From: a virus
Reading direction: 5' to 3' (one strand)
IMG/VR virus record: IMGVR_UViG_3300034117_000038
Location: 1-29,848 of that record
Length of the DNA: 29,848 nucleotides
Shown here in pieces: positions 1,092 to 27,884 of this stretch. The stretch's first letter is position 1, and the number at the start of each line of letters is the position of its first letter. The notes beneath the pieces are model-generated. The model searched no databases and had not been told where the DNA came from. It worked only from the letters and a program-made list of their open reading frames with translations. The position numbers and the translations under genes were made by a program.

Positions 1092-1126
1092 ACGTATATT
1101 ATAACATAGTATTGAGATTTACTCAA
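1092..1126 (-). promoter_or_regulatory. Sigma70-type early promoter for the Pol III-like gene
   Basis: On the minus strand TTGAGT (1121-1126) is followed after exactly 17 nt by TATAAT (1098-1103), with an extended -10 TG one base upstream. The -10 ends 6 nt before the ATG at 1091, so the predicted transcript would begin at or next to the start codon. Confidence 0.65.
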
Positions 1127-16075: not shown

Positions 16076-19000
16076 TTATTGTCCACCGAGCTCGCCTGTG
16101 TTCAATATACGAACCGGGATATAGATGAATTCAGCTGCCTTAACAGGCTCAACTGCAACGTCAATCCACAATTCATTTCTATCGATTCTTGCTGGAGTAT
16201 TGTTACTATCGTCACAAACTACAATATAATCATATAGACCGCGTTTTGCAACTAAATCTACCATCAATGTTTCTACAACACCGGAGATTTGATTGCGTGT
16301 TAGTGCATCATTAGGTTCGAATACGAACGGTCTTGCTGCCAATGTCAACTGTCTACGTATGTAAGCAATCAAACGAGCAACGTTAGTTCTATCTAACGCA
16401 CTTGAACTGTTAAAGCTTGTCTTGTTACCGTAGTTCAATAAACCAACACCAGTAAAGAACACTAATGGATTAATGAAGTTGGTATACAATACATCACGAA
16501 TACCTAAGCGTGTCTTAATTGGAGTAAACTCACCGGTCGCACCATCAACATAACCAATGCTTAATGCATTGTCAATTGTACCACGGCGTGTACCAGCTGC
16601 CGCTAACCAAGGATAAGCTACAGTATCATTACGTAAGAATGTACGCAACATCATATATGAAGCAGGAACAGCTACCTGATTACCTGACAAGTCTGTTGCT
16701 AAGCCACTTGGATAGAATAGACCCATATATGTATTGCGTGTTACTAAACCTTGTTCACCTGTACTAGATGCACCGGCTTCGTTAGTAGCCCAAGCTTGAA
16801 TATCAGTAGCACTATCAGCTAAACGCATTGGAGTATCACCTAAGATATAACCAGTTTCACCTCGATCTGCGTTCAACGCAATCATTGCAGGTTGTAGTTC
16901 AGGATAGTTAGGAGTAGCCATCAAGTTGAAGAAGTTATCTTCATCACGAATTGCAGTATTAGTTGCAACTGCGGCATTTAATGACTGAACAACCATAGCA
17001 CGTTGTGCTTTACGACCCATATATGGAGCACCATTAGTTTGTAAACCACTTACTGTTACCCAAGCATCTGTTTCTGTTGGCAAAGACTCATCAGGGAAAT
17101 CCGTACCATTGAAATAGTTTGTTCTGAACTGCTTTACATTATAACCTGAACGGCGTGTGTTAAACAATAACATACCTGATGGATATAAACTTGCATCAGG
17201 AGCATCTAAATCTAAATAATTGCTAGCTAACAATGATACGATTGTTGGGATAGGATCATCTACTGGACTTGTTGTACCGTTTGTGGCCCAACGAGCATCA
17301 GAAAATAATACACCAGTACTACCTGTTTGGTCAGTGTTATCAATTAGTACCCATTGATCAGTACTGTTAACTGATTGCCAACGACTAATTACTGGGTAAT
17401 TTTCTAAATCACCAGTATTAATCCACAAATCACCATATACTAAAGCTGTACCGTCACTTTGAACAGTTGGTGTACTTGCAGAAATTATAGGACCATTTGG
17501 ATCAGTTTCGTTTGTTCCACTAGGTAAGGGGAATCCATCACTATCATAATCACGCAAACCATAACCATACCAAGCACTATTGTAGTTAATCATAATATCA
17601 ACTTGATCAACTACACTATAGAACCAGTTAGTGTTATCTGCAGGAGCCACTACAGGATCGCTGTCACTTGAAATATAAGTAAATTCAACCCAGTTACTTA
17701 ACTGTGATTGAAACGCTATAGGAGGAGTACCTGAAATATATGTAACTGCAGTCACTGCACCAGTAGACACAGCAGTAACCTTAACATCTAAATCGTTGAC
17801 TCCTGACTGTCCGCCTAATTCTACACCGTCAACACTAATGATATCTCCAATAGTATATCCCGATCCAGTAGCCGCCACACCATCACCTACTAAAACATAA
17901 GCACCAGATGAGGTTACAACATTAATCGTAGCACCAGTACCAGTAGCACTAGTACTAGGAGCCCCTGTAAATGTTGCTTGAATTGTAGGTCCATATTTAA
18001 CACCAGTAGTTACACCAATAGTAAATCCAGCCTCAACAATTAATCCGTTAGATACACCAGTTGAGACAAATGAACTATTAACAGTGTCATCCATAATAAT
18101 TTCTCCACCCTCAGTGTGCGTAATTTGAATTGCACCATCAGTAGTTACTATAGCTGTAGTATTTGGAATACCTGCTGCCGACCATGCTGTTACAAAATCA
18201 GTCGCATCACTATTATCTGCAACTGTTATATTATACGCATTACTTAAAGTTGTAGTACCCGCAATAGGTACAAATACATTCATACGATATGGACCAGAGT
18301 TGAAAGTAGGAGAAGTATTATCTCCTGTGATTACGGTAGGTCCTGTTGCAATACGCTCCCAGAAGTAAATTGGAGCAGTAGCACCCGACCCATTATAATT
18401 ATATTGCGAATAAATAGTTCCAGCTGGAATAGCTTGACCACCGGTTGCATCTAGACTTGCACTAGCTGACCAGTCACTAACGTATAATCCCACATTCTTA
18501 GCATTCCAAGTTTGTGTAGCACCGTTGAATACTGACATTGATGGATTTAAACCATTACCAGATGCACCAACTTTAATCCAAATTGATCCAGTTGGACGAG
18601 GTTCTGATTGACTACTTGACCATAATGGCATTTGAGCAGACGTACCGTATACAAGAAGAGGTTGGTAATACGTAGTAGAATCAATACCCATATCAGCCAA
18701 TGCACCAGGAGTAACTTCTGTTAAGGTTAAGTATGAATTAGCAATACCTAATGTTGTTAATTGATTGGAGAAGATGCATAATTTACCACTACGAACTTCT
18801 GCAGTTACATCTGTCCAACCTAAATTATTAATTACAGTAGCCACACCATCAACAGTATTATTTGGGGCTACTGGAACTGTAATAGTTACGGAATAAATTC
18901 CAGATACACTCATTGTGAATGACTCACCTGCAGTCAAGGTTGTAGGTGAATTAGTACCTTGTACTGCCGGTGTATCATTTCTCCAAACAGGGCCACCTAA

Positions 19001-19645
19001 TCTTGTCCAAGCATTAGTAGTTGTTTTATAAAAATATGTTTTATCTGATGTGCTTACTGGATTACCAGTAATTTGTATAGCATTAACTGCATACTCACCC
19101 ACTGAACCAATGCTATTATTTGGAACACCGGCAGTCAAATCAGCACTGTCAGTAATGACAATAGGAGTTTGTAATGCAAATTTTCCAGTTGTAGCATTGA
19201 ATTCATAGATACCCCAACTGCTTGTAGTAGAATCTAACCAATATGTGCCGCTAGCTGGATTCCCAGTTGGGCGACCTGTTTGACCTACTAAGCTAGCTAA
19301 GTCGATATCAGCACGTAGAACGTAACAACGATTTGTCACACCTAATGTTGAATAAGCAGCCAACAAGCCGTATTCATTAAGTTCATAACCTTGAATTGGT
19401 GTACCATTTGTCGTTGTATAGAAGAATGGAGTACCATACAAGTTTACTAAATCTCTTTGACTTGTAACTTGGAATAATTTGTTTGCGTTTGCCGCTGTTG
19501 TTGCCGCCGCTACACCTGTACCAGATGCGTCAGCTTTATTCTGTGCCGTAGCAAGAACCACTAGTGGGACGGAATTTGTGGGCGCTGGTAAATATTGACT
19601 TTGGTCAATGATTGATACTTCTACGCCTGGAGATGTTAATGCCAT
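16076..19645 (-). CDS. 18: Contractile tail sheath protein gp18 (enlarged)
   Basis: A 1189-residue sheath subunit; T4 gp18 has 659. The N terminus MALTSPGVEVSIIDQSQYLP and the DLVNLYGTPFF / GYELNEYGLLAAYSTLG segments match the family start. The conserved C-terminal region begins near residue 870 (RKAQRAMVVQSLNAAV). It includes AYPWLAAAGTRRGTIDNA, INPLVFFTGVGLLNYGNKT, VARLIAYIRRQLTLAARPFV and AAEFIYIPVRILNTG. The extra ~500 residues (about 130-860) are Gly/Thr/Ser-rich beta modules, including WGIYEFNATTGKF (about 143) and GSGYTIGDIISVDG (about 590). Such insertions project outward from the sheath surface in other phages. SD AAGGAA lies 7 nt upstream, and a late promoter 54 nt upstream. Confidence 0.9.
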   Translation of the reverse strand: MALTSPGVEVSIIDQSQYLPAPTNSVPLVVLATAQNKADASGTGVAAATTAANANKLFQVTSQRDLVNLYGTPFFYTTTNGTPIQGYELNEYGLLAAYSTLGVTNRCYVLRADIDLASLVGQTGRPTGNPASGTYWLDSTTSSWGIYEFNATTGKFALQTPIVITDSADLTAGVPNNSIGSVGEYAVNAIQITGNPVSTSDKTYFYKTTTNAWTRLGGPVWRNDTPAVQGTNSPTTLTAGESFTMSVSGIYSVTITVPVAPNNTVDGVATVINNLGWTDVTAEVRSGKLCIFSNQLTTLGIANSYLTLTEVTPGALADMGIDSTTYYQPLLVYGTSAQMPLWSSSQSEPRPTGSIWIKVGASGNGLNPSMSVFNGATQTWNAKNVGLYVSDWSASASLDATGGQAIPAGTIYSQYNYNGSGATAPIYFWERIATGPTVITGDNTSPTFNSGPYRMNVFVPIAGTTTLSNAYNITVADNSDATDFVTAWSAAGIPNTTAIVTTDGAIQITHTEGGEIIMDDTVNSSFVSTGVSNGLIVEAGFTIGVTTGVKYGPTIQATFTGAPSTSATGTGATINVVTSSGAYVLVGDGVAATGSGYTIGDIISVDGVELGGQSGVNDLDVKVTAVSTGAVTAVTYISGTPPIAFQSQLSNWVEFTYISSDSDPVVAPADNTNWFYSVVDQVDIMINYNSAWYGYGLRDYDSDGFPLPSGTNETDPNGPIISASTPTVQSDGTALVYGDLWINTGDLENYPVISRWQSVNSTDQWVLIDNTDQTGSTGVLFSDARWATNGTTSPVDDPIPTIVSLLASNYLDLDAPDASLYPSGMLLFNTRRSGYNVKQFRTNYFNGTDFPDESLPTETDAWVTVSGLQTNGAPYMGRKAQRAMVVQSLNAAVATNTAIRDEDNFFNLMATPNYPELQPAMIALNADRGETGYILGDTPMRLADSATDIQAWATNEAGASSTGEQGLVTRNTYMGLFYPSGLATDLSGNQVAVPASYMMLRTFLRNDTVAYPWLAAAGTRRGTIDNALSIGYVDGATGEFTPIKTRLGIRDVLYTNFINPLVFFTGVGLLNYGNKTSFNSSSALDRTNVARLIAYIRRQLTLAARPFVFEPNDALTRNQISGVVETLMVDLVAKRGLYDYIVVCDDSNNTPARIDRNELWIDVAVEPVKAAEFIYIPVRILNTGELGGQ

Positions 19646-19698
19646 TTTATGTTTCCTTTATGTAAAATTTTGAGGTTTACCACCTGATTGCATATTAA

Positions 19699-19706
19699 TA
19701 TTTATC
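19699..19706 (-). promoter_or_regulatory. Late promoter GATAAATA (gene 18)
   Basis: GATAAATA on the minus strand, ending 53 nt before the sheath ATG. The predicted leader is longer than for the other late genes. Confidence 0.7.
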
Positions 19707-19765
19707 TAATACTTCAAAAAAGATCCATTATCCGTGCCTTCGAAGGTTTATAGAGTAAATAGACT

Positions 19766-20110
19766 ATGAGACCAATCTGTTCTACCTGTGAAAAGAATTT
19801 CTGCGCTATTAATTATAAGCGTGGTGAAGTCACCCATTATCGTAGTATGTGTGACGAATGTGGTAGAAGGAAAAACAAACTTAAACCTCGCACTCCTAAA
19901 TGGAAGAGTAAAGGTTATAAGAAAAAAGCCGCTTGTGATTTATGCGGCTTTAAGAGTTTATTTACTAGTCAAATTACAGTCTTTCATATTGACGGCAACT
20001 TAGATAACGCAGAAATGTCTAATCTGCGTAGCATCTGTCTTAACTGTGTAGAAGTAGTTAAAAAGAAAGAAGTTACTTGGAAACGAGGAGACTTACAGGT
20101 TGACCACTGA
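19766..20110 (+). CDS. Degenerate HNH-like double zinc-ribbon protein
   Basis: A 114-residue basic protein with two metal-binding halves. The first is C5-x2-C8 with C29-x2-C32. The second is C57-x2-C60 with C91-x2-C94, flanking a treble-clef centre VFHIDGNLDNAEMSNLRSIC (about 72-91). The HID...N...NL...CxxC order is that of HNH endonucleases, but the usual HH pair is FH and the final CxxCH is CxxCV. Catalysis is therefore doubtful and DNA binding more likely. It is the only plus-strand gene among minus-strand genes here and overlaps the kinase 3' end by 18 nt, tail to tail. I recall near-identical small proteins in marine T4-like phages. A weak TTGAGG-17-TATTAA promoter may lie at 19670-19698. 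Confidence 0.7.
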   Translation: MRPICSTCEKNFCAINYKRGEVTHYRSMCDECGRRKNKLKPRTPKWKSKGYKKKAACDLCGFKSLFTSQITVFHIDGNLDNAEMSNLRSICLNCVEVVKKKEVTWKRGDLQVDH

Positions 20111-20725
20111 GTTAACTTGCTTATGTAAGTCATCAATAGAACCGTTATTATCAATATAATGGTCATACAATAATCCAACACTACTATACTCACTAGCATG
20201 GACACTATAGTTTCCTAACTCTACCATAGCTTTTAATCTTTGTTCACTACCCTCAGGCTCATTATTATAGTCTACTGCGGCACTATACCAAACTGGACGT
20301 TCACCTCTATTAACTCGCATAGTGATTCCACCTACACTTTTAATTGAATTGACTTCATTAACAAAACGACAATCTGTAATCACAATGTTTTCATCAGTTT
20401 GACGTAGTTTATTCTCTACACTTGCTACCCAAATATCACTATGGAAGTTATTACGACATACTTCTGTTCCCCAGTATTGTAATACCCATCTTGGGGTAAT
20501 ATTCATACCTAGTCGGTCACTCCACCATTCGTCTTTTTGTTCTCGCCATGCTCTGCTTGTTTTAGTTGAACCTTCCAAGTATTCTCTATTCCATCCAAAG
20601 ACGGCTGATACTGCGTCTTTTAAACTTGCCGCAAAACTAACACGTTTGAACCCGTGAAATGTGCAAAGATAGTCGGCAATTGTGTCCTTGCCGCTCGAAA
20701 TTAAACCGGTAACACCTATAATCAT
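20093..20725 (-). CDS. 1: Deoxynucleoside monophosphate kinase (T4 gp1-like)
   Basis: A P-loop kinase of 210 residues from the chosen start. MIIGVTGLISSGKDTIADYL carries the Walker A G7-x4-GKDT. Then come VSFAASLKDAVSAVFGW (substrate lid entry), the TPRWVLQYWGTEVCR block, and ENIVITDCRFVNEVNSI (Walker B-like Asp), as in T4 gp1 and related dNMP kinases. The enzyme phosphorylates dNMPs, feeding DNA synthesis from host DNA breakdown. A longer frame begins at 20746, but AGGAG at 20733-20737 is 7 nt before the ATG at 20725, so that start is preferred. The ribosome-binding site lies in a hairpin that contains the gene's own early promoter. Confidence 0.8.
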   Translation of the reverse strand: MIIGVTGLISSGKDTIADYLCTFHGFKRVSFAASLKDAVSAVFGWNREYLEGSTKTSRAWREQKDEWWSDRLGMNITPRWVLQYWGTEVCRNNFHSDIWVASVENKLRQTDENIVITDCRFVNEVNSIKSVGGITMRVNRGERPVWYSAAVDYNNEPEGSEQRLKAMVELGNYSVHASEYSSVGLLYDHYIDNNGSIDDLHKQVNSVVNL

Positions 20726-20731
20726 ATGGTA

Positions 20732-20775
20732 ACTCCTGTAATACATATTGTACTACAGGAGTGTTGTAATGTAAA
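20732..20775 (-). promoter_or_regulatory. Early promoter within an RBS hairpin of the dNMP kinase gene
   Basis: On the minus strand TTTACA (20770-20775), a 17-nt spacer and TACAAT (20747-20752) form a sigma70-type promoter. The 9-bp inverted repeat ACTCCTGTA (20754-20762) / TACAGGAGT (20732-20740) has the -10 in its loop and the left arm in the spacer. Its right arm is the AGGAG ribosome-binding site. The expected start point near 20740 leaves the left arm out of the local transcript. Confidence 0.65.
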
Positions 20776-20784
20776 TTGTTTAGG

Positions 20785-21570
20785 TTAACCTTGTACCCAA
20801 GTCAATGGCTGACTGTAATCTACATATCGTTTTAGTTCTTCAATGAGTTCTTGTTGAAGTTGTTTGGATTCAGCCTTCATTGCCGCACCATTTAAACTTG
20901 TGCCGCCTCCTGGACCTGCGATACTAGCAAACTTTTCACGTGCTTCACCAATAATACCTTTTAATACGGCAAATACCCAATCACCAATCCATACACCGGC
21001 ACCTGGATCTTGCAACAAAACTTCTTGTGTTCTTTGTACATCAGCCCAAATCAATATACGTTCTCCGGATCCTTTTGGATCACGCACAATACGTAATACT
21101 TTGGTAACCGGATCAAATGTATAGATAACATATCCACCAAACATTCTGGCAGCTAGTTCAACGTAACCTGCATAAAAGTCATATGTTGCCATACCACCTG
21201 CATAGTTATAGTTTAACAAATAAGTGTTTAGAATAGCTGAACTAAATGGATCAAATGAACTACTTGATGGACCTGTTTCTAGACCAACTGTTCTACGAAA
21301 GATAGAACGTACATTAATAAACTCACTGGGAAGTGTATAAGTATCTACATTCTTTTCTACTGTGAAAAGAGTGTATGATTCTGCTGTAGAGTTTTGTGCC
21401 CGTTGACGATATACTTTGATGGCATAGTTATATGCCGCTTCATAGTGTTGCGGGTCTAGTTCTAAATCAATAATGCCGTCACCTAAACGATATCTAACGT
21501 TTTGGAATAGTGCTTGTTTTAATTCGTCTAGCGTTAAGCCTGATGGTGTAGCTAATATATTTGCGGTCAT
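20785..21570 (-). CDS. 13: Neck protein gp13-like
   Basis: A 261-residue protein. A helical start (LDELKQALFQNVRYRLGDG) is followed by LELDPQHYEAAYNYAIKVYRQ, TYTLPSEFINVRSIFRRTVGL, AARMFGGYVIYTFDPVTKVLRIV, then RILIWADVQRTQEVLLQDPG. The C-terminal helical part is WVFAVLKGIIGEAREKFA...AMKAESKQLQQELIEELKRYV. This order matches gp13 neck proteins of cyanophage-type T4 phages, which bind the portal vertex and recruit gp14. T4 gp13 is somewhat longer (309). Late promoter and ribosome-binding site are in one hairpin just upstream. Unlike T4, genes 14 and 15 are not next to it but 2.8 kb away on the other strand. Confidence 0.7.
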   Translation of the reverse strand: MTANILATPSGLTLDELKQALFQNVRYRLGDGIIDLELDPQHYEAAYNYAIKVYRQRAQNSTAESYTLFTVEKNVDTYTLPSEFINVRSIFRRTVGLETGPSSSSFDPFSSAILNTYLLNYNYAGGMATYDFYAGYVELAARMFGGYVIYTFDPVTKVLRIVRDPKGSGERILIWADVQRTQEVLLQDPGAGVWIGDWVFAVLKGIIGEAREKFASIAGPGGGTSLNGAAMKAESKQLQQELIEELKRYVDYSQPLTWVQG

Positions 21571-21574
21571 AGTT

Positions 21575-21603
21575 GTTTCCTGATGTTGTATTTATCAGGA
21601 AAC
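21575..21603 (-). promoter_or_regulatory. Late promoter inside RBS-sequestering hairpin of gene 13
   Basis: On the minus strand GTTTCCTGAT-AAATACAAC-ATCAGGAAAC is a perfect 10-bp stem with a 9-nt loop. The late octamer GATAAATA (21589-21596) spans the end of the left arm and the loop. The right arm holds the AGGAAA ribosome-binding site, 4 nt before the ATG at 21570. Confidence 0.75.
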
Positions 21604-21620
21604 TATAGTGTTGTAACCTA

Positions 21621-22562
21621 TTATGCTAGACCATAAGTTGCGGCCGCTAAGTCATATCTAGCAGTACCAACACCTGCAGTATCTGTGGCCACTACACCTG
21701 TGTTTGATACTAGGTTAGTAATTGATACAGCACCGCCGGCGGCACCATATCCAAAAATAGCTTTGTCAGTACCATAAGTTGCGGCTCCTAACTGACTCCT
21801 AGCAGTACCAACACCTGTAGTATCTGTAGCAACAACGCCTGTATTTGATACTAAGTTGGTCATTGATACCGGTCCGTTTCCATATCCAAATATAGCTTTA
21901 TCAGTTCCATAACCTGCGGCTGCTAAACTATATCTAGCAGTACCAACACCTGTTGTATCAGTAGCAACTACACCTGTATTACTTACTAGGTTGGTCATTG
22001 ATACTACAGTAAAACCTCCGGCGCTAGTAGCACCATAACCAAATATAGCTTTGTCAGTACCATATGTTGCGGCTTCAGCTAACTGTCTTGCTGTACCAAC
22101 CCCTGCAGTGTCAGTCGCAACTACCCCTGCGTTTGATACTAGATTAGTTATTGCGGTGTTGGATGGTCCAGTCCTACCATATCCAAATATAGCTTTATCC
22201 GAACCATATGTTGCGGCTCCAAGATTATATCTAGCAGTGCCGACACCGGTAACATCATTTGCTACTATACCTGCATTTGATACTAGATTAGTCATACTTA
22301 GTGGATTACCAGATGTTTGGTCATAACCATAACCAAAGATAGCTTTATCAGTGCCGTAACCTGCGGCTGCTAATGCATTCCTAGCAGTTCCAACACCTGT
22401 TGTATCAGTAGCAACTACACCTGTATTACTTACTAGGTTGGTCATTGATACACCACTACTACCGTTAGTCCCATAACCAAATATAGCGTATGCAAGATAC
22501 GACGGAGGTTGTGGTGTTACACTTACTCCACCACCAATTGAAATTCCTGATCCGATATCCAT
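21621..22562 (-). CDS. Six-repeat propeller-like protein (AIFGYG repeats)
   Basis: A 313-residue protein. After a 27-residue Gly/Ser/Pro leader it has six units of 45-51 residues, each built as KAIFGYG - variable loop - SMTNLVSNTGVVATDTTG - VGTARxxLAAAxYGTD. The last unit ends at ATYGLA, exactly where the first begins (YAIFGYG), as expected if the chain closes on itself as a six-bladed beta-propeller. The pattern resembles Kelch/RCC1-like repeats but matches neither consensus. The loops after GYG differ in every copy (YDQTSGNPL, RTGPSNTA, ATSAGGFTVV, NGPV, AAGGAV), while the scaffold is nearly constant. A late promoter directly upstream suggests a virion or adhesion role. Function is otherwise unknown. 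Confidence 0.7.
   Translation of the reverse strand: MDIGSGISIGGGVSVTPQPPSYLAYAIFGYGTNGSSGVSMTNLVSNTGVVATDTTGVGTARNALAAAGYGTDKAIFGYGYDQTSGNPLSMTNLVSNAGIVANDVTGVGTARYNLGAATYGSDKAIFGYGRTGPSNTAITNLVSNAGVVATDTAGVGTARQLAEAATYGTDKAIFGYGATSAGGFTVVSMTNLVSNTGVVATDTTGVGTARYSLAAAGYGTDKAIFGYGNGPVSMTNLVSNTGVVATDTTGVGTARSQLGAATYGTDKAIFGYGAAGGAVSITNLVSNTGVVATDTAGVGTARYDLAAATYGLA
21625..22495 (-). repeat. Six tandem ~145-nt coding repeats
   Basis: Six in-frame repeats of about 135-153 nt, highly alike in DNA (for example the phrase coding KAIFGYG and that coding VGTAR). They are interrupted at one fixed place per unit by unrelated short sequence. Confidence 0.85.
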
Positions 22563-22589
22563 AATATGTTATCCTTTAACATATTTATC
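22563..22589 (-). promoter_or_regulatory. Late promoter and hairpin presenting the SD in its loop
   Basis: On the minus strand GATAAATA (22582-22589) overlaps the hairpin AATATGTTA-AAGGA-TAACATATT, a perfect 9-bp stem directly before the ATG at 22562. The AAGGA ribosome-binding site is the 5-nt loop. The octamer also overlaps the mazG stop codon. Confidence 0.6.
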
Positions 22590-23022
22590 AGATATCATTT
22601 TCTTTTCGATTTTCGCTATAATGTGCGTCAAAACTACCACCGGGATAACGACTTTCTAATTTACGAACGTTCTCATCAATAACATCATTTGGGTCAAGAT
22701 TCAAGGCCCTACAAGCATTAATCCAGTACCACATAACATCACCTAATTCTCGCTTTAAGTGAAAAACTTCAGCATCAGTTAATGGTTTGCCCTGAAAAAA
22801 CATCTTTTTGGGCACTTCGATAAATTCACCACCTTCAGCCGCTAATCCTAGGCAAGCGGTTAATAACAGTGGTACATTGATATCAGGACCATGTACTCCA
22901 TTACCAATATAATTACCATCAAGCTCATCACATCGGTCCATAAACGTAGTCAAGTCATTACTTGCTTTGCTTGTTACAGCTTCTACAAAATCTTTGTATT
23001 TGTTTAAATCAATATTACTCAT
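22588..23022 (-). CDS. mazG: MazG-like nucleotide pyrophosphohydrolase
   Basis: A 144-residue MazG-type all-alpha NTP pyrophosphohydrolase. The metal-binding pattern ExxE-x25-ExxD is complete: E63-GG-E66 in LGLAAEGGEFIEV and E92-LG-D95 in LKRELGDVMWYW. A C-terminal helix follows (VIDENVRKLESRYPGG). These enzymes hydrolyse NTPs or dNTPs to NMP and pyrophosphate. In marine phages MazG is proposed to lower (p)ppGpp or to recycle host nucleotides, although the natural substrate is disputed. The start overlaps the upstream stop by one base (TAATG), so it is coupled to the 397-residue gene and probably expressed early from the promoter at 24248-24276. Confidence 0.9.
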   Translation of the reverse strand: MSNIDLNKYKDFVEAVTSKASNDLTTFMDRCDELDGNYIGNGVHGPDINVPLLLTACLGLAAEGGEFIEVPKKMFFQGKPLTDAEVFHLKRELGDVMWYWINACRALNLDPNDVIDENVRKLESRYPGGSFDAHYSENRKENDI

Positions 23023-24215
23023 TAAAATGCTTTCAAAATAATCATTTGATCATTAAACCTACCGTTAGGTGTTGTACTAACTGCTTTAATGTCTTTAAAA
23101 TACTTACGAGCGGCCGGCTTGCTACCCATAACTTCTTTAATCTGCTCACTAGGTTTACGTAATGTCTTTACTTCACTTTGTGCAGTATCAAATCCCAACA
23201 GTGTACTACCTTTAACAGTAAAGGTCTTGCTATAATCATCGGCAATGTAATGATGTAACTTGCGCTTTGCGGTATCATACACCCAAGCTTCACTTGCACC
23301 ATGAAGCTTGATTGGACTAATACTTACTAAGTCCATCTTACTTGCAGTATCTTTGAATGTTTTAAGATACTTAAGTTTTGCTACTTGTTTCTCTACTGGT
23401 ACTGCTTTACGTGCCCTAGGAGCTTTTGCGGCCTTCTTAACACTAATGTAACTGTTCAAATCATTGATAACTAATTCAATAAACTTAACAATGTTTTTAA
23501 GTTGTGTTTTTGTTAGGTGCTGATAACCCTGAACTAGTTGCGCATCTGTACCTTTTAATACTTCTTCAATTTCATTCAGTTTCTTTTTCCACACATCGGT
23601 TAGCAAACTAATATGTTGAGGCATTACATTCTTTTTAGCTACTTCATCAATTGGTCGTAATGTATGTCTTGTTCCGGCACCTGACGTAATATATTCATCA
23701 AACAATCCTTCAAGTTCACCGCCGGCTTCACGTGCTTTATCTTTAAGAATTTCCTGAATGTTGGGACGAGAAGGAGCTTCAGGTGCACCGGTTGCAGTAG
23801 CTTCAACTAGTTGTGGTTTATTAATAGTTTCAAGCAATCGTTTAATTTCATTTTGTAGTGTATCTGATTCTGTTTCAGATAGTTCTAGACCACGCAATTC
23901 CATACGTGCTAACCAGCATAAAGTATTGATACATTCTTTCTCATCAATCCTACGCATGATCTTAGCCTCTTGTGGTCTTTCACGTAGGTCTAGGTATTGT
24001 GCTAAAAATTCTTTAGCATCTTTCTTACCATAAAAACGACCATACCATGTGAAACTACGCATAAGTGCTACTCGGCGTCTATCTGAATCGGGTTGTACGG
24101 CAAACATAGGTTCAGGACCTAAATATTCTGTATCCGGGTCTCTGGGGTTAAGTGTCTTAACCTGTGAATAATCACTAGCTTTAATGATTTTACTTGCGGG
24201 TTTACGTGTTGCCAT
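23022..24215 (-). CDS. Conserved T4-like marine phage protein of unknown function
   Basis: A 397-residue soluble protein. The basic N terminus MATRKPASKIIKASDYSQVK precedes a helical region containing FTWYGRFYGKKDAKEFLAQYL and ECINTLCWLARMELRG (about 55-115). Another helical stretch is about 195-265, followed by a Lys/Arg/Ala-rich linker (KKAAKAPRARKAVPVEKQ). A final beta-containing domain includes MDLVSISPIKLHGASEAWVYDTAKRKLHHYIA (about 302-333). I recall this as a hypothetical in marine myophages. The early promoter, clear SD (AGGAG) and coupling to mazG suggest an early metabolic or nucleic-acid role, not a virion part. The charge pattern allows nucleic-acid binding, but no enzyme motif is seen. 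Confidence 0.75.
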   Translation of the reverse strand: MATRKPASKIIKASDYSQVKTLNPRDPDTEYLGPEPMFAVQPDSDRRRVALMRSFTWYGRFYGKKDAKEFLAQYLDLRERPQEAKIMRRIDEKECINTLCWLARMELRGLELSETESDTLQNEIKRLLETINKPQLVEATATGAPEAPSRPNIQEILKDKAREAGGELEGLFDEYITSGAGTRHTLRPIDEVAKKNVMPQHISLLTDVWKKKLNEIEEVLKGTDAQLVQGYQHLTKTQLKNIVKFIELVINDLNSYISVKKAAKAPRARKAVPVEKQVAKLKYLKTFKDTASKMDLVSISPIKLHGASEAWVYDTAKRKLHHYIADDYSKTFTVKGSTLLGFDTAQSEVKTLRKPSEQIKEVMGSKPAARKYFKDIKAVSTTPNGRFNDQMIILKAF

Positions 24216-24247: not shown

Positions 24248-24276
24248 ATTGTAGCAGATTGTCCATTTGTTGTCAA
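24248..24276 (-). promoter_or_regulatory. Strong sigma70-type early promoter (unknown gene and mazG)
   Basis: A perfect -35 TTGACA (24271-24276), a 17-nt spacer and -10 TACAAT (24248-24253) on the minus strand. Predicted start is near 24241, giving a leader of about 26 nt with AGGAG before the ATG at 24215. Confidence 0.85.
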
Positions 24277-26062: not shown

Positions 26063-27439
26063 ATGGCACAATTTTTCTACGACAATCAGGTACGCAGATT
26101 TCTAATTCAATTTGGAAAAATATTTAGCAACTGGCAAGTAACTAAAGGTAAAGATCCTGCAGGCAATGAAATACTTGTTCGTGTTCCAGTTATGTATGGT
26201 GATTCAAGTAGACAAGCAAGTACTATCATTGCTAACAACAGTGCTAGCAACTTACCTAGTGCACCATTGATTACATATTATATTACTGGGCTAGAATATG
26301 ATCAACGTAGGACACAGGATCCTACGTTTATTGATAAGATACAAGTTCGTCAACGTAGTTATAACGCAGAAACACAAAGTTATGAGCAAGTTCAAGGTCA
26401 AGCATTTACAGTTGAACGATTAATGCCAGTTCCATATACATTAAGAATGACAGTAGATTTATGGACAACGAATTATAATCAAAAATTACAATTGATTGAA
26501 CAATTAGGTACATTATTTAACCCTTCATTAGAGATACAAAGTACTGATAACTTTATTGATTGGACTAGCTTAAGCGTTGTATATCAAGATGGATTAACCT
26601 TCAGTAGTCGTAGTATTCCACAAGGTACAGGCAATCCAATAGATGTAATGAGTTGGAAATTCTATATGCCTATATGGATTAGTAATGCCGCTAAACTTAA
26701 AAAGATGGGTGTTATTGAAAAGATTATTGCTAGTATATTCTCCGGTAAAGCACTTGACGATATACAAAATGATGATTTGTTATTGGGCACACGACAAAAG
26801 ATTACACCATATGGTTATAAATTGTTATTGATAGGTAATAGTTTGCAACTATTGCCGGCTGATCAAGATTTTTATCCCAACAATGAGGATTTAGATTTAC
26901 CACCCAATCCTAATACAAGTTTATACTGGTCAAGCCTATTGAATGTATATGGTACATTAAGACCAGGTATTAGTCAGATATGGTTACAAAATCCGTTTAT
27001 GGATACAGAGATTGTAGGTACTATTGTACCTGATCCAGTTGATGATAGATTATTGATATATGATATTGACCCAGATACCCTGCCTCAAAATACATTGGAT
27101 CCTGTAGACAGCGTGATTAACCCATTAGTCACAGGACCAAATGCAGGGTTACCTCCCGCAGAAAATGGGATGAGATATCTTATTGTAGATAACATTGGTA
27201 GTGATGGTGATACTACTATTGCATGGGGTAATGTAGTAGCATATGCTAATGACATTATTGAATATGATGGTAGTATGGGAGAATGGTTTGTATCATTTGA
27301 TAGTGCCCAAGCTACTACAGTTGAATATGTTACCAATTTGACAACCAGCATACAGTATCGTTATGTTAATACTGAAGGTGCATGGATGAAATCGTGGGAA
27401 GGCTGGTATGGCCAGGGTGATTATAGTATTGTAATCTAA
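26063..27439 (+). CDS. 15: Tail terminator/completion protein gp15-like
   Basis: A 458-residue protein (T4 gp15 has 272). The first 230 residues match the gp15 family: FFYDNQVRRFLIQFGKIFSNWQV, RVPVMYGDSSRQAS, PLITYYITGLEYDQRRTQDP, VERLMPVPYTLRMTVDLWTTN, QLIEQLGTLFNPSLEIQST, then DVMSWKFYMPIWISNAAKLKK. gp15 forms the hexameric ring that caps the finished tail and joins it to gp14. The extra ~220 C-terminal residues (beta-rich, ending WEGWYGQGDYSIVI) are typical of marine relatives and have no clear function. No strong Shine-Dalgarno precedes the ATG; it lies 3 nt past the gp14 stop, so translation is probably coupled. Confidence 0.85.
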   Translation: MAQFFYDNQVRRFLIQFGKIFSNWQVTKGKDPAGNEILVRVPVMYGDSSRQASTIIANNSASNLPSAPLITYYITGLEYDQRRTQDPTFIDKIQVRQRSYNAETQSYEQVQGQAFTVERLMPVPYTLRMTVDLWTTNYNQKLQLIEQLGTLFNPSLEIQSTDNFIDWTSLSVVYQDGLTFSSRSIPQGTGNPIDVMSWKFYMPIWISNAAKLKKMGVIEKIIASIFSGKALDDIQNDDLLLGTRQKITPYGYKLLLIGNSLQLLPADQDFYPNNEDLDLPPNPNTSLYWSSLLNVYGTLRPGISQIWLQNPFMDTEIVGTIVPDPVDDRLLIYDIDPDTLPQNTLDPVDSVINPLVTGPNAGLPPAENGMRYLIVDNIGSDGDTTIAWGNVVAYANDIIEYDGSMGEWFVSFDSAQATTVEYVTNLTTSIQYRYVNTEGAWMKSWEGWYGQGDYSIVI

Positions 27440-27457
27440 TTTACTTTATGCTATAAT
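27429..27457 (+). promoter_or_regulatory. Extended -10 sigma70-type promoter for the Nudix gene
   Basis: TTGTAA (27429-27434), 17-nt spacer and TATAAT (27452-27457), with the extended -10 TG one base before. The ATG at 27468 is only 10 nt past the -10, so the leader would be a few nucleotides at most. Confidence 0.65.
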
Positions 27458-27467
27458 CTCTTAGCAT

Positions 27468-27884
27468 ATGAATAATATTTCAGCAGGCGTGTTCTTTTAC
27501 GCTAAAAATACACAACGATTTTTATATCTACTTAGAACGGACAATAAAAATCCGGGCAATTGGGGTATACCGGGCGGTAAGATAGAAAATGGCGAGACAT
27601 TGCTTGTAGGCATTGATAGAGAATGTACTGAAGAAATTGGATACTTTCCAAAAAATCCTAAATTAGTACCTATACAAAAGTTTGTAAATAATACATTTAC
27701 ATATCATACATTTTTTTGCAAAATAGATGAAGAATTCATTCCAATATTAAATTATGAGCATTGCGGTTATGCTTGGGTGGGTGATAATCAATATCCTAAA
27801 CCATTACATCCTGGATTGTTTAGTACTGTAAACTTTGATGTAGTGCAGAAAAAATTAAAAGCACTTACAAAAAAAGAGACCTAA
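27468..27884 (+). CDS. Nudix hydrolase
   Basis: A 138-residue single-domain Nudix protein with an intact box. G37-x5-E43-x7-R51-E52-C-T-E55-E56-I-G58-Y lies within PGGKIENGETLLVGIDREC, and the preceding WGIPGG turn is present. Such enzymes cleave nucleoside diphosphates linked to another moiety. Phage relatives have been linked to ADP-ribose, Ap4A, NADH or mRNA cap removal, and the substrate cannot be told from sequence. No Shine-Dalgarno is visible before the start and the promoter is almost on top of the ATG. The stop codon lies in the loop of the terminator hairpin shared with the opposing gene. Confidence 0.9.
   Translation: MNNISAGVFFYAKNTQRFLYLLRTDNKNPGNWGIPGGKIENGETLLVGIDRECTEEIGYFPKNPKLVPIQKFVNNTFTYHTFFCKIDEEFIPILNYEHCGYAWVGDNQYPKPLHPGLFSTVNFDVVQKKLKALTKKET

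Follow-up and report, generated by a model that had tools for sequence, protein, structure and literature searches.

The window, by which we mean the whole 29,848-nucleotide stretch of DNA that was analysed, is an IMG/VR fragment encoding a gp13-like neck protein, a gp15-like sheath stabiliser and a dNMP kinase. Its closest named relatives are Pectobacterium phage CBB, Escherichia phage 121Q, Klebsiella phage RaK2 and further giant myoviruses. Gene content and nearest named relatives together indicate that the window belongs to a T4-like giant phage. A megablast search of positions 18000-24000 against phage records gave no match. The kinase gene (20093..20725, minus strand) encodes 210 amino acids and matches phrog_139 (E 1.1e-48) and, above cut-off, Pfam DNMK. 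Its ATG lies at 20725-20723, and the mechanically called ORF begins in frame at 20746, within the hairpin described below. Directly upstream on the same strand is a gene 13-like neck/head-tail adaptor gene (20785..21570, minus strand; phrog_211, E 3.3e-24), a late gene that would read into the kinase gene. A scan for terminator-like sites between the end of gp13 (20785) and 20747 found none. Several isolates have a similar gene arrangement, running from neck gene through kinase to tail sheath.

As for the kinase promoter, a consensus scan identified a sigma70-type element, TTTACA-17-TACAAT (20747..20775, minus strand), with its -35 at 20775-20770, a 17-nt spacer, its -10 at 20752-20747 and a predicted start at about 20740. 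Upstream of it lies a conserved element, AACCTAAAC (20778..20786, minus strand), which was found by sequence comparison, overlaps the gp13 stop codon and is retained even where the gene upstream of the kinase differs from gp13. A lone consensus match of this kind occurs at chance level (17 found versus 16.3 expected in shuffles), so that the single-site score by itself means little. What makes the promoter credible is its conservation in relatives, where both hexamers and the two hairpin arms recur down to about 65-70% protein identity. When two 350-kb relatives were searched with a promoter profile in which the stem columns were masked, each genome gave one outstanding match, at the kinase, with scores of 39.5 and 40.9 (next best, 16.2 and 8.8) and no equally good copy at other genes. 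The sigma70-type sequence suggests that the promoter is early. It could also be middle or delayed early, given the AACCTAAAC element and a weak -35, both of which set it apart from the phage's main early promoters.

A predicted promoter within the kinase RBS hairpin

The promoter overlaps an inverted repeat. The left arm, ACTCCTGTAGTACA (20749..20762, minus strand), lies in the promoter spacer and takes in the -10 as far as its fourth base, while the right arm, TGTATTACAGGAGT (20732..20745, minus strand), contains the Shine-Dalgarno sequence AGGAG of the kinase (20733..20737, minus strand). Both arms were defined by folding and covariation. A preliminary description had noted this overlap, which stands, and had given the repeat as 9 bp, which does not: by folding, the stem comprises 14 pairs, one of them G·U, closed by a 3-nt loop (20762-20732). 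It had also placed the start point in the right arm, in agreement with the start predicted here, at about 20740 within 20745-20732.

The 101-nt leader of read-through RNA has a minimum free energy of -28.1 kcal/mol (z -3.7), and none of 200 shuffles was as stable. In the window, the predicted cost of opening the Shine-Dalgarno (kcal/mol throughout) is 12.0 in read-through RNA, a value that is unchanged in a 500-nt context, and about 0.5 in RNA born at the promoter. Any start 3-9 nt past the -10 is predicted to remove the left arm from the RNA. Within the spacer, conservation is higher inside the stem than outside it (1.34 versus 0.89 bits). A search of 20500-21700 against the models of Rfam 15, at E values up to 1, returned no match.

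These features suggest how the leader may work. The kinase, which would be needed early, sits behind a late gene on the same strand. RNA started at the internal promoter, whose left arm stays behind in the spacer and whose first bases come from the right arm, could not form the hairpin and would expose the Shine-Dalgarno. Late read-through RNA from gene 13 would carry the whole hairpin and be poorly translated.

Conservation and covariation across relatives

A scan of IMG/VR yielded 80 loci, and three further scans brought the collection to 152 distinct kinase upstream regions, most of which retain the promoter hexamers and the two arms despite a changing upstream gene. The module TAACCTAAAC-TTTACT-17-TATAAT plus hairpin persists in front of the kinase beside late-looking neighbours other than gp13, which shows that it travels with the kinase. 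With start sites assumed to lie a constant number of nucleotides past the -10, the mean Shine-Dalgarno opening cost over 51 distinct loci is 9.5 kcal/mol in read-through RNA and 1.5 in promoter-born RNA; shuffling the left arm lowers the read-through value to 3.2. In an extended set, measured over the Shine-Dalgarno-to-AUG region, the difference between the two RNAs exceeds 3 kcal/mol at 112 of 139 loci, and as identity falls this fraction runs 34/35, 32/37, 29/35 and 17/32. At a cut-off of 4, the 152 regions fall into 101 with a hairpin, 14 weak, eight leaderless and 29 with neither.

The exceptions and variants are of several kinds. Four loci (L062, L069, L078 and L074) have the promoter but no hairpin over the Shine-Dalgarno, and show a small cost difference, while L008, L047, L049, L060 and L413 have leaderless promoters instead. 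More distant relatives keep the logic with other sequence. In L279 the hairpin is rebuilt, as ACCCCTAATA/TATTAGGGGT, around its own -10. Others, among them L262, L258, L259 and L404, have a short left arm between the -10 and the start, with its partner arm just ahead of the ATG; in this second design, with stems such as AGCGT/ACGCT, AGCAT/ATGCT and AGAGC/GCTCT, several stems are compensated.

We considered the orientation of the upstream gene as a natural control and rejected it, the upstream gene lying on the same strand as the kinase in all loci examined. The sole opposite-strand neighbour is that of an isolate, Vibrio phage 2.275, which has no hairpin, a single case and too few to count. 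Two cultured giant phages, Agrobacterium phage Atu_ph07 (L174) and Sinorhizobium phage Phosso (L168), have strong hairpins over the kinase start, with opening costs of 20.5 versus 7.4 kcal/mol in Atu_ph07, where TATAGT lies inside the hairpin, and 14.9 versus 7.0 in Phosso. In L054, L063, L073, L251 and L414, homing-endonuclease-like ORFs lie directly upstream of the kinase, and the hairpin and sigma70 promoter are lost, leaving a plain Shine-Dalgarno. Elsewhere (L003, L004, L007, L011, L012, L014, L016, L045 and others) unrelated-looking proteins encoded just upstream of the kinase share the N-terminus MRAxEFIxE, which resembles the signal that targets internal head proteins to the capsid in T4; such genes seem to have a hot spot at the gp13-kinase junction.

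The two hairpin designs bear on whether the promoter might be weak or always on, with the hairpin only tuning kinase dose and no early/late switch. The -35 (TTTACA or TTTACT) is indeed a partial match, and the promoter departs from the consensus of the main early promoters in this phage. A hairpin that acts as a damper, like the short sigG one, lies within the mRNA, however (PMC5942855), and a simple damper has no need of a left arm upstream of the predicted start, which is where both designs put it. We regard this explanation as unlikely.

Slightly less probable still is that the hairpin is an intrinsic terminator which ends late gene 13 transcripts, the promoter restarting transcription behind it and the hiding of the Shine-Dalgarno being a by-product. 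At least six T occur in the eight bases after the Shine-Dalgarno in 24 of 96 hairpin-bearing relatives, about a quarter, where the stem could act as a terminator. At this junction the isolates CBB, BF, XbC2, GAP32, XaC1 and Munch carry a hairpin and T-run that resemble a terminator (an annotated terminator in Munch), so that insulating the kinase against incoming transcripts is a plausible role there. In the window, however, TTACCAT follows the Shine-Dalgarno, no T-run follows the stem and the scan finds no terminator, and 54 of the 96 relatives have fewer than four T. What is conserved is the arm over the Shine-Dalgarno, a geometry that argues against termination.

Covariation was assessed on a gapless alignment of 33 distinct rows, in which 93.4% of cells are paired and both sides have changed in six of 12 pairs, a count not fully corrected for relatedness. 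The covariation score is 0.300 versus 0.223 in shuffled alignments, none of 500 reaching it, and slid registers score at most 0.143. In contrasts for four pairs on the kinase tree, the partner changed the same way 1.7-2.3 times per tested pair and the other way 0-0.3 times, each too small for significance singly. Among 24 distinct stems, G-U wobbles in the sense RNA outnumber A-C mismatches, which would be G-U in the antisense strand alone, by 33 to 13 (binomial p 0.0045, ignoring relatedness, for which this count too is not fully corrected), and the stem of L387 keeps six G-U pairs. Together with the rebuilt stems of distant relatives, the covariation and the G-U excess point to an RNA structure that is present only in RNA started upstream.

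The same evidence disfavours, as very improbable, a DNA operator whose inverted repeat binds a dimeric repressor that shuts the promoter, the RNA fold being incidental: a palindrome centred on the -10 is a common operator position and the element is well conserved, but the G-U excess, L387 included, is unexpected for a DNA palindrome, distant relatives replace the stem sequence wholly or move the stem, and the right arm keeps its link with the Shine-Dalgarno or the start codon.

We therefore consider it probable that the kinase leader is a translation switch that depends on where the RNA starts. The structural logic put forward in the preliminary description, with promoter-born RNA lacking the left arm and read-through RNA carrying it, is well supported by folding, by covariation and by the comparison of relatives, and silencing of the read-through RNA would follow from it. 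The basis is sequence, predicted folding, covariation and conservation, from which we infer the timing of the promoter, late read-through and repression in vivo.

Gene 13 and other candidate start-site-dependent genes

Gene 13 appears to carry the opposite switch, with a late promoter inside its own RBS hairpin. Its hairpin, GTTTCCTGAT-aaatacaac-ATCAGGAAAC (21575..21603, minus strand), identified by sequence, folding and comparison, encloses the late promoter GATAAATA (21596-21589). The predicted cost of opening its Shine-Dalgarno is 14.6 in read-through RNA and 0.7 in late-promoter RNA. This hairpin is conserved with compensated arms in relatives and occurs in another form in the isolates CBB, GAP32, BF and Munch. 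The reciprocal early/late pair proposed earlier is thus real at the level of sequence, gene 13 having a classical T4 late promoter in its RBS hairpin. A second late-type switch, AATATGTTA-AAGGA-TAACATATT (22563..22585, minus strand), precedes a 313-aa gene (21621-22562); the left arm of this switch bears the late promoter GATAAATA (22589-22582), and the opening costs are 10.0 versus 2.6. Here the repeat is 9 bp with AAGGA as its loop (22563-22589, minus strand), a Shine-Dalgarno-in-loop form of the switch. Further upstream, a strong sigma70-type promoter, TTGACA-17-TACAAT (24248..24276, minus strand; 11 of 12 consensus bases), stands before a 397-aa gene and a MazG gene and could send early RNA into gene 13. 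Genes of early, late and again early type would thus succeed one another along a single strand, each junction having an RBS hairpin predicted to depend on the start site.

We also asked how general such arrangements are. An RBS hairpin as a general trait of early promoters was rejected, since ordinary leaders of 21-28 nt follow most of them (TTGACAATAAATGG...TATAAT), and in two large relatives the majority of sigma70 promoters have an ordinary leader and an open Shine-Dalgarno. Strong RBS hairpins are only mildly more numerous per genome than in shuffled sequence (27 versus 16 and 25 versus 16), so that hairpins alone are no evidence. Among the sigma70 promoters of the two large relatives, those in regions where late promoters dominate are enriched in hairpin or leaderless designs (9/16 versus 7/54, Fisher p 0.0009, in an exploratory test with crude gene and promoter calls). 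A 348-kb relative offers a second candidate for a kinase-type switch, a 98-aa gene (L176:7298-7594, minus strand) with TTGACA-17-TATAAT inside its RBS hairpin and an opening cost of 14.4 versus 2.1.

The best-supported parallel is a DNA-polymerase-like gene (585-1091), which is predicted to make a leaderless early mRNA. Its promoter, TTGAGT-17-TATAAT (1092-1126, minus strand), has a -10 ending 6 nt before the ATG. Of 54 distinct relatives, down to about 60% identity, 48 have a sigma70 -10 that stops a few nt short of the start codon, almost always by 6. A NUDIX gene (27468-27884) has no Shine-Dalgarno and a promoter, TTGTAA-17-TATAAT (27429-27467, plus strand), whose -10 ends 10 nt before the ATG; many of its relatives at 81-87% identity have a late-like GATAAATC near the ATG instead. 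We put forward tentatively, as something a little short of an even chance, that in these giant phages early genes in late clusters are generally licensed for translation by their RNA start site, through two interchangeable devices, a leaderless start and an RBS hairpin with a sigma70 promoter inside. If true, early and late genes may alternate along a strand without terminators, each rejecting RNA of the other phase.

Comparison with known systems

The RBS hairpins of phage T4 are a textbook way of keeping late genes silent early. Hairpins with an internal late promoter are described for T4 e, soc, I-TevI and segB and for Aeh1 mobE (PMC3014915, PMC2988022), and the T4 genes so controlled are all late (PMC2988022). 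The kinase leader resembles them in having the promoter on the 5' arm, with upstream RNA that would be silenced and internal-promoter RNA that would be translated, and computation agrees that the Shine-Dalgarno is hidden in upstream-initiated RNA (12.0 kcal/mol; covariation). Gene 13, with GATAAATA inside its hairpin, has exactly the T4-type arrangement. The kinase, unlike T4 genes, has TTTACA-17-TACAAT where an internal T4-type late promoter (TATAAATA-like) would be: its internal promoter is of sigma70 type and serves an early-type metabolic gene, and the RNA to be silenced is late.

In Bacillus subtilis, a hairpin of 20+ bp has been proposed to block translation of sigG from spoIIG read-through, and RNA made from sigG's own promoter cannot fold into it (PMC5942855). 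The kinase shares with sigG the insulation from read-through and a promoter placed so that its own RNA lacks the hairpin; it differs in belonging to a phage programme with a reciprocal partner, whereas sigG is a sporulation gene served by other sigma factors. In the fold-back inhibition of IS10/Tn10, the inverted repeat carried by read-through RNA from outside hides the transposase start, and pIN RNA lacks it. IS10, unlike the kinase switch, guards a transposon against chance transcription and follows no timed viral programme. As expected of a hairpin of the sigG/IS10 type, the kinase has a same-strand transcription unit upstream, and the scan found no terminator in between. The leaderless early mRNAs predicted in the same phages also make translation depend on the start, but have no hairpin, their -10 ending about 6 nt before the ATG.

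In the literature searched, mainly open papers, we found no phage early promoter inside an RBS hairpin. The earlier claim that no equivalent is described holds to that extent for phage early promoters, and must be given up for the silencing of read-through RNA, of which sigG and IS10 are examples. As read from its sequence, the predicted kinase switch is the T4 device turned round, conserved with covariation in about 100 distinct uncultured giant-phage sequences and standing beside a classical one. It points to a way in which phages could intermix early and late genes along a strand and do without terminators, provides a means of telling from sequence when a gene is expressed, and could serve as a promoter-RBS part that is both compact and insulated.
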